Source: Candidatus Saccharimonadota bacterium (GTDB lineage: Bacteria > Patescibacteriota > Saccharimonadia > Saccharimonadales > UBA4665). From it: DNA of 44,588 bases. Below the pieces are notes generated by a model that worked only from the letters and a program-made list of their open reading frames with translations, searched no databases and was not told the origin of the DNA. The position numbers and the translations under genes are program-made. Positions 19,754 through 20,152 of this stretch are shown here, piece by piece (positions within the stretch are counted from its first letter, which is position 1; the number at the start of each line of letters is the position of its first letter). The DNA is taken from contig PLYP01000004.1 of assembly GCA_003153395.1 (NCBI GenBank), forward strand, positions 1 to 44,588, read 5' to 3'.

Positions 19754-20152
19754 TGGTGGAGCTGGCGGAGTACTGCCCTCCGCGTCCGTCAGTTTATCTA
19801 TGTTAGTCATCTACAGGCTTAGTTCGCTTTATTGTCTTTAAGAAGCGGTATATAAACGAACAAACATTCGCTTCTCGCAGCCCTAAAATCTTTTACAAGC
19901 ACTTAGAGCGGGGTACTTGTAGCAACCTGATGATATGACACGCCTTTGCGCTATCAGGTGTCACACGCGGCGTGGCTTTAGCCTTGGCTAAAAGCTGGTG
20001 CTAATACAAAATTTGCGCTGGGTGTAAAAACACTAGCTACAGATTTTGCAAAGCTTTTAAATGCGTTTGCAATTAAAGGTTTTGCCTATACGCTGACAAG
20101 CGACCTGCTGATCTAACTGATAAAGTCCAACGTCGAGCTTAAATTCAGCCCC
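19754..20152 (-). ncRNA. ssrA: tmRNA (transfer-messenger RNA)
   Basis: The 399-nt minus-strand RNA frees stalled ribosomes. Its ends form the tRNA-like acceptor: GGGGCTG (20152-20146) pairs with CAGCTCC (19764-19758), followed by ACCA. CTCGAC follows the 5' end as in other tmRNAs, and AACTAAGCCTGTAGATG then GGACGCGG precede the 3' end. Four H-type pseudoknots can be drawn: PK1 (CGC/GCG and TTGTC/GGCAA, 20102-20082), PK2 (GACAC/GTGTC and CTGAT/ATCAG, 19962-19926), PK3 (ACAAG/CTTGT and GCTCTAA/TTAGGGC, 19920-19880), and PK4 (AGAAGCG/CGCTTCT and GTTCGTTT/AAAGCGAAC, 19875-19822). The resume codon is GCA at 20070 after CTTTAATT. The tag frame begins ANAFKS, runs 30 codons and ends FSQG then TAA at 19980-19978, in helix 5. 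Odd points: the tag lacks a terminal LAA, and the T arm (19783-19765) has a GGCAGTA loop instead of a TTCRANT type. Confidence 0.95.

Follow-up and report, generated by a model that had tools for sequence, protein, structure and literature searches.

A one-piece tmRNA with a variant elbow and a long tag in a Saccharimonadia bacterium

The window (the whole stretch of DNA that was analysed, 44,588 nucleotides) carries on its minus strand a one-piece tmRNA gene, the features of which are listed in Table 1. The Infernal search with Rfam model RF00023 that the earlier note had proposed returned a full-length match at 20152–19754 (86.1 bits against a gathering score of 47 bits; model positions 1–374; E 3.6e-32), far beyond chance. 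It was the only match above cut-off in the genome (G000; 920 kb, rated 100% complete), and the tmRNA is thus single-copy. A permissive Rfam scan of the window found no RNA family besides tmRNA, and a promoter and terminator scan of the regions flanking the gene gave no signal above shuffles. The four pseudoknots were assigned from the Rfam alignment. The acceptor is tRNA-Ala-like, with the G3·U70 pair and a CCA end; a resume codon opens a tag frame with its stop in or near helix 5, and SmpB is encoded in the genome (PF01668, 4.7e-40). The RNA is a genuine tmRNA, as had been proposed from its sequence, and a member of the RF00023 family with a variant elbow.

Table 1. Features of the tmRNA gene in the window.
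Feature	Position	Strand	Basis or detail
tmRNA (ssrA), one-piece, 399 nt, CCA encoded	19754..20152	-	RF00023 86.1 bits, full model
Acceptor 5' strand GGGGCUG, G3·U70 alanine identity pair	20146..20152	-	Sequence, Rfam alignment
D-loop AAUUUAAGCUCGAC; A13 = 20139, G14 = 20138, nt 16 absent vs E. coli	20132..20145	-	Sequence
Tag frame, 30 codons from GCA: ANAFKSFAKSVASVFTPSANFVLAPAFSQG	19981..20070	-	Resume context UUUAAUU-GCA common to relatives
Resume codon GCA	20070-20068	-	
Tag stop UAA, helix 5 3' strand	19978..19980	-	Nine-tmRNA alignment, folds
Helix 5 hairpin GCUUUUAGCCAAGGCUAAAGC, extra U in 5' strand	19975..19995	-	Fold, alignment
T arm, 6-bp stem GCGGAG/CUCCGC, loop GGCAGUA	19765..19783	-	G54 19777, G55 = G342 19776, C56 19775, G58 19773
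Acceptor 3' strand CAGCUCC + ACCA	19754..19764	-	Sequence

ARAGORN made zero calls across the window. It recovered four of 85 Saccharimonadia tmRNAs and none of the 55 with a T-loop starting GG, which bears out the suspicion that a gene finder relying on the T-loop motif may miss this RNA. Zero matches above the RF00023 gathering score were obtained in 25 of the 99 genomes searched. Under-annotation of tmRNA in the group is therefore real, and the variant T-loop accounts for the failure of common tools to detect tmRNA in Saccharimonadia.

The T-loop was compared in 155 Patescibacteria tmRNAs (89 Saccharimonadia and 66 others), made up of 85 Saccharimonadia sequences from the same genome, family and order and 70 drawn evenly across the phylum, four of the latter being Saccharimonadia. 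The earlier note had described a non-standard T arm with six pairs and a GGCAGTA loop lacking TTC; the description holds, and the arm is not a local oddity. G stands at tRNA position 55 (E. coli 342) in 83 of the 89 Saccharimonadia tmRNAs, and the exact loop GGCAGUA recurs in 33 of them. Relatives with a normal TTC loop, which had been named as the sign of a local error, are not what was found, and a base-call error in the T-loop was ruled out by the same loop in relatives. Six-pair T stems are rarer (7/89 Saccharimonadia), and six of the seven have the same sequence, GCGGAG/CUCCGC. The motif UUCRANY, from which the loop departs, is typical of tmRNA and not strictly defining, since the G55 sequences and two published tmRNAs (PMC1168896) likewise lack it. 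The unusual-looking T-loop is the form normally found in Saccharimonadia, not an error. All 11 tRNAs of this genome that were checked have ordinary TTC loops and TruB is present, so that the loss of U55 in the tmRNA is not the loss of an enzyme, and the change concerns tmRNA rather than translation in general.

Few tertiary structures in biology are as highly conserved as the contact between D-loop and T-loop. In ordinary tRNA, U54·A58 closes the T-loop, U55 meets G18 and C56 pairs with G19 (PMC7912444). Among the 155 tmRNAs, G54 was partnered by G58 in 57 and by C in one, and G58 was never seen apart from G54 (G54/G58 table 57/1/0/97; Fisher p 5e-42, kinship ignored). On a tree built without the tested columns, position 54 gave eight supported independent contrasts; position 58 changed the same way in seven, the opposite way in none and was unchanged in one (sign test on the 7/7 informative contrasts, p 0.016). 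At nt 13 (tRNA 18) and nt 342 (tRNA 55) the combinations were G/U in 44, A/G in 96, U/G in five and G/G in none of the 155, where nt 13 and 14 were assigned in Saccharimonadia on the assumption that one base of the D-loop is deleted. The 66 tmRNAs from outside Saccharimonadia, most of which have a normal-length D-loop and which align without a gap, gave 44 G/U, 17 A/G, four U/U, one C/C and no G/G. The D-loop is one base short in 76 of 85 Saccharimonadia, and the form AAGC|UCGAC is common to 57/85. The nt 13/342 coupling comprises three supported independent contrasts on the tmRNA tree, too few for significance, and kinship is therefore less well excluded for it than for 54/58. C56 and G14 are mostly kept across the sample. 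We read this as two tertiary pairs swapped for alternatives of putative geometry: G54·G58 would stand in place of U54·A58 and A13(18)·G342(55) in place of G13(18)·U342(55), with G14(19)–C56 retained. The elbow would be rewired rather than lost; the loss of D-loop contact that had been supposed earlier is not borne out, matching changes being present at T-loop position 58 and D-loop position 13.

The tag was read from the GCA at 20070. An inner GCA, which had been considered as the start of a 12-residue tag, was rejected as resume codon because the UAAUU-GCA context and the position used in relatives are matched only at 20070. The frame of 30 codons, its lack of an LAA end and its ...FSQG terminus were correctly described; its length is not unusual, the median being 26 aa for the readable Saccharimonadia tags and about 21 for other Patescibacteria (lengths from a simple frame finder, some rows being unreadable or misread), and published lengths span 8–35 (PMC3968760). 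Long hydrophobic tags are normal in the group, and the short LAA tags that had been thought to betray an error here are not the rule in relatives, where some tags do end LAA. The C-terminus is exceptional: all other readable Saccharimonadia tags end A, V or I (rows L014 and L021, which had been misread, were corrected by hand and both end A), and the comparison with relatives that had been suggested confined the non-A/V end to this genome in the sample. According to an alignment of nine tmRNAs and their folds, those relatives that share the CACCAGC-UUUUAG region have their stop codon in the apical loop of helix 5 (..PALV-UAA or similar); here the helix-5 5' strand has an extra U, CAA replaces the loop stop, and UAA follows two codons on in the 3' strand. 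The shifted stop would be explained by two indels that compensate each other or by a few substitutions: the loop stop of helix 5 would have been lost and reading continued over two codons to the next UAA, giving the C-terminal SQG. As a separate and speculative alternative end, a -1 frameshift at the helix-5 UUU (19995–19988, minus strand, GCUUUUAG) would meet UAG at once and yield a tag ending ..LAPAF.

The ...FSQG end could also be an artefact of assembly or base calling, in which case the true gene would end in the helix-5 loop like its relatives (..PALA/PALV or similar). We think this rather unlikely, though it deserves serious attention: the end is carried by one genome only amid readable tags that all finish in A, V or I, and the extra helix-5 U and absent loop stop are as expected from a pair of small indels or from several substitutions. 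A single homopolymer error is nevertheless insufficient, as UUU leaves the old frame without a stop for many codons and UUUUU gives an end in ..APAF, and no damage is apparent in the adjacent genes of the window. Only very improbably is the whole gene a degenerate or non-functional tmRNA; its Rfam score does lie below that of most Patescibacteria outside its own order, and its tag end is odd, but many relatives score lower still, and the gene is single-copy and complete, with CCA, G3·U70, the conserved resume context and SmpB in the genome.

Decay of the T- and D-loops, with the elbow contact lost and the tRNA-like domain held by SmpB alone, is likewise improbable, if less so. It would fit the disappearance of both the m5U54 and the pseudouridine-55 sites, the missing nt 16 and the aromatic residue, Y or F, that aligns with E. 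coli SmpB Trp122 in 29 of 32 Saccharimonadia. A strict coupling of G54 with G58 and of A13 with G342 is not expected from decay, however, nor do C56, kept in most loops, and 33 identical loops among 89 speak for it. In the E. coli SmpB sequence used as reference, Trp122 falls at 122 as published. In E. coli this residue packs on A15, U17 and A334 (PMC8363625). A search for an SmpB column tracking elbow type found none that separates both types cleanly across the phylum, Y/F at 122 marking Saccharimonadia only, and support in the SmpB tree was too weak to date the elbow switches.

With regard to the fate of tagged proteins, the ClpX zinc-binding domain (zf-C4_ClpX) was found in 0/30 relatives, with positive controls, and no intact PF10431 ORF of ~400 aa was recognisable as ClpX; the PF10431 Clp ATPases are all about 800–900 aa, bar some shorter fragments close to contig ends. 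ClpXP-dependent ssrA tagging relies on ClpX and an LAA end, and the present tag ends SQG. Among the Clp ATPases of this genome, one resembles ClpC/ClpB and has a ClpC-type N domain; ClpP and FtsH occur here and in nearly all relatives. Since ClpX was undetected and ClpP, the ClpC-type ATPase and FtsH are present, the LAA rule of ClpXP does not apply. Tagged proteins would be cleared without ClpX, the most likely route being the ClpC-type ATPase with ClpP, or FtsH. Lon was discarded as tag reader, since in this genome the protein that matches Lon_C is RadA and a true Lon was not seen. The earlier note had deduced a different protease from the tag end; the outcome is likely right and the reason is not, ClpX being undetected group-wide, including in relatives with LAA tags. 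A ClpX-free route has a precedent in Mycoplasma, which has no ClpXP and in which an extended tag is read by Lon (Ge and Karzai 2009, cited in PMC3985003). Two further Clp ATPase observations were made: G000:C2:145300-148500 (L280:453-2879 +) encodes a Clp/Hsp100-type ATPase of 808 aa whose N-terminal segment is hydrophobic and which may be membrane-anchored, and a second Clp ATPase of ~800–900 aa occurs in most of the 30 relatives.

On these sequence comparisons we consider it highly probable that the gene, from a Saccharimonadia (TM7-type) bacterium, encodes a working tmRNA. It is predicted to serve ordinary trans-translation with SmpB as partner, its elbow kept by alternative pairs that would still permit binding of SmpB and EF-Tu, its tagged proteins cleared without ClpX, and its SQG end, if biologically real, due to the lost loop stop. 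A more far-reaching proposal is plausible and tentative: the Saccharimonadia tmRNA elbow (G54·G58 and A18·G55 versus U54·A58 and G18·pseudoU55) may be a differently wired, probably unmodified form restricted to tmRNA in these cells, co-adapted with SmpB and feeding ClpX-free degradation, with the degron moved or lost in this species.

Like E. coli ssrA and other one-piece RF00023 tmRNAs, the RNA combines a G3·U70 acceptor, CCA, resume codon, tag frame, helix 5, T arm and SmpB. It differs from E. coli ssrA in the T-loop (GGCAGUA vs UUCAACU), the D-loop (AAGC|UCGAC vs GGAU|UCGAC), the 30-aa tag ending SQG and the 6-bp T stem. The same T-loop replacements are known from Caulobacter crescentus, where G replaces U342, and from Reclinomonas americana mitochondria, with GG at 341–342 (PMC1168896); those are isolated cases in two-chain tmRNAs, whereas the changes reported here are lineage-wide, lie in one-piece genes and go together with changes at positions 58 and 13. 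In Dehalococcoides tmRNA a sixth T-stem pair has been noted as possible (PMC1168896), comparable with the six-pair stems found here. Mycoplasma shares a long hydrophobic tag, the lack of a strict LAA end and a lineage without ClpXP; unlike there, ClpP, a ClpC-type ATPase and FtsH are kept, the genome shows no true Lon, and the tags of relatives end A/V.

The G342 and GG loops are thus already published as isolated replacements (PMC1168896). Within the open-access literature on tmRNA T-loops in Patescibacteria/Saccharibacteria (subscription journals lay outside the scope), no report of the coupled changes or their spread was found. The accessible text of the 2025 tmRNA database paper (97,179 sequences; PMC11915505) does not discuss the T-loop change, and the database probably holds such sequences. 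The lineage offers a natural series in which both key non-canonical elbow pairs are exchanged in one RNA while the checked tRNAs of the same cell are standard, by which the limits of the elbow in structure and function become testable. The findings also point to a ClpX-independent fate of tagged proteins.

Some observations were made on smpB and tmRNA across the phylum. The two genes directly adjoin in many Patescibacteria (L243 = G154:C1:24848-25299, G157:C30, G222:C1, G118:C1 and others); in the present genome they are not adjacent (C2 vs C9). One relative (G012, 96% complete) has a tmRNA and no SmpB or ClpP match, probably owing to assembly gaps. Nine Patescibacteria (G099, G115, G122, G125, G155, G209, G214, G225 and G227), several of them 97–100% complete, gave no SmpB match and weak, tRNA-like RF00023 matches; joint loss of tmRNA and SmpB, that is, an absence of trans-translation, is possible in them. 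In one family (code f47; G106, G127, G144, G162, G175 and G202), SmpB is unusually short (135–141 aa), and the tmRNAs are long or poorly scoring, for example 458 nt in G144 and 486 nt in G175.
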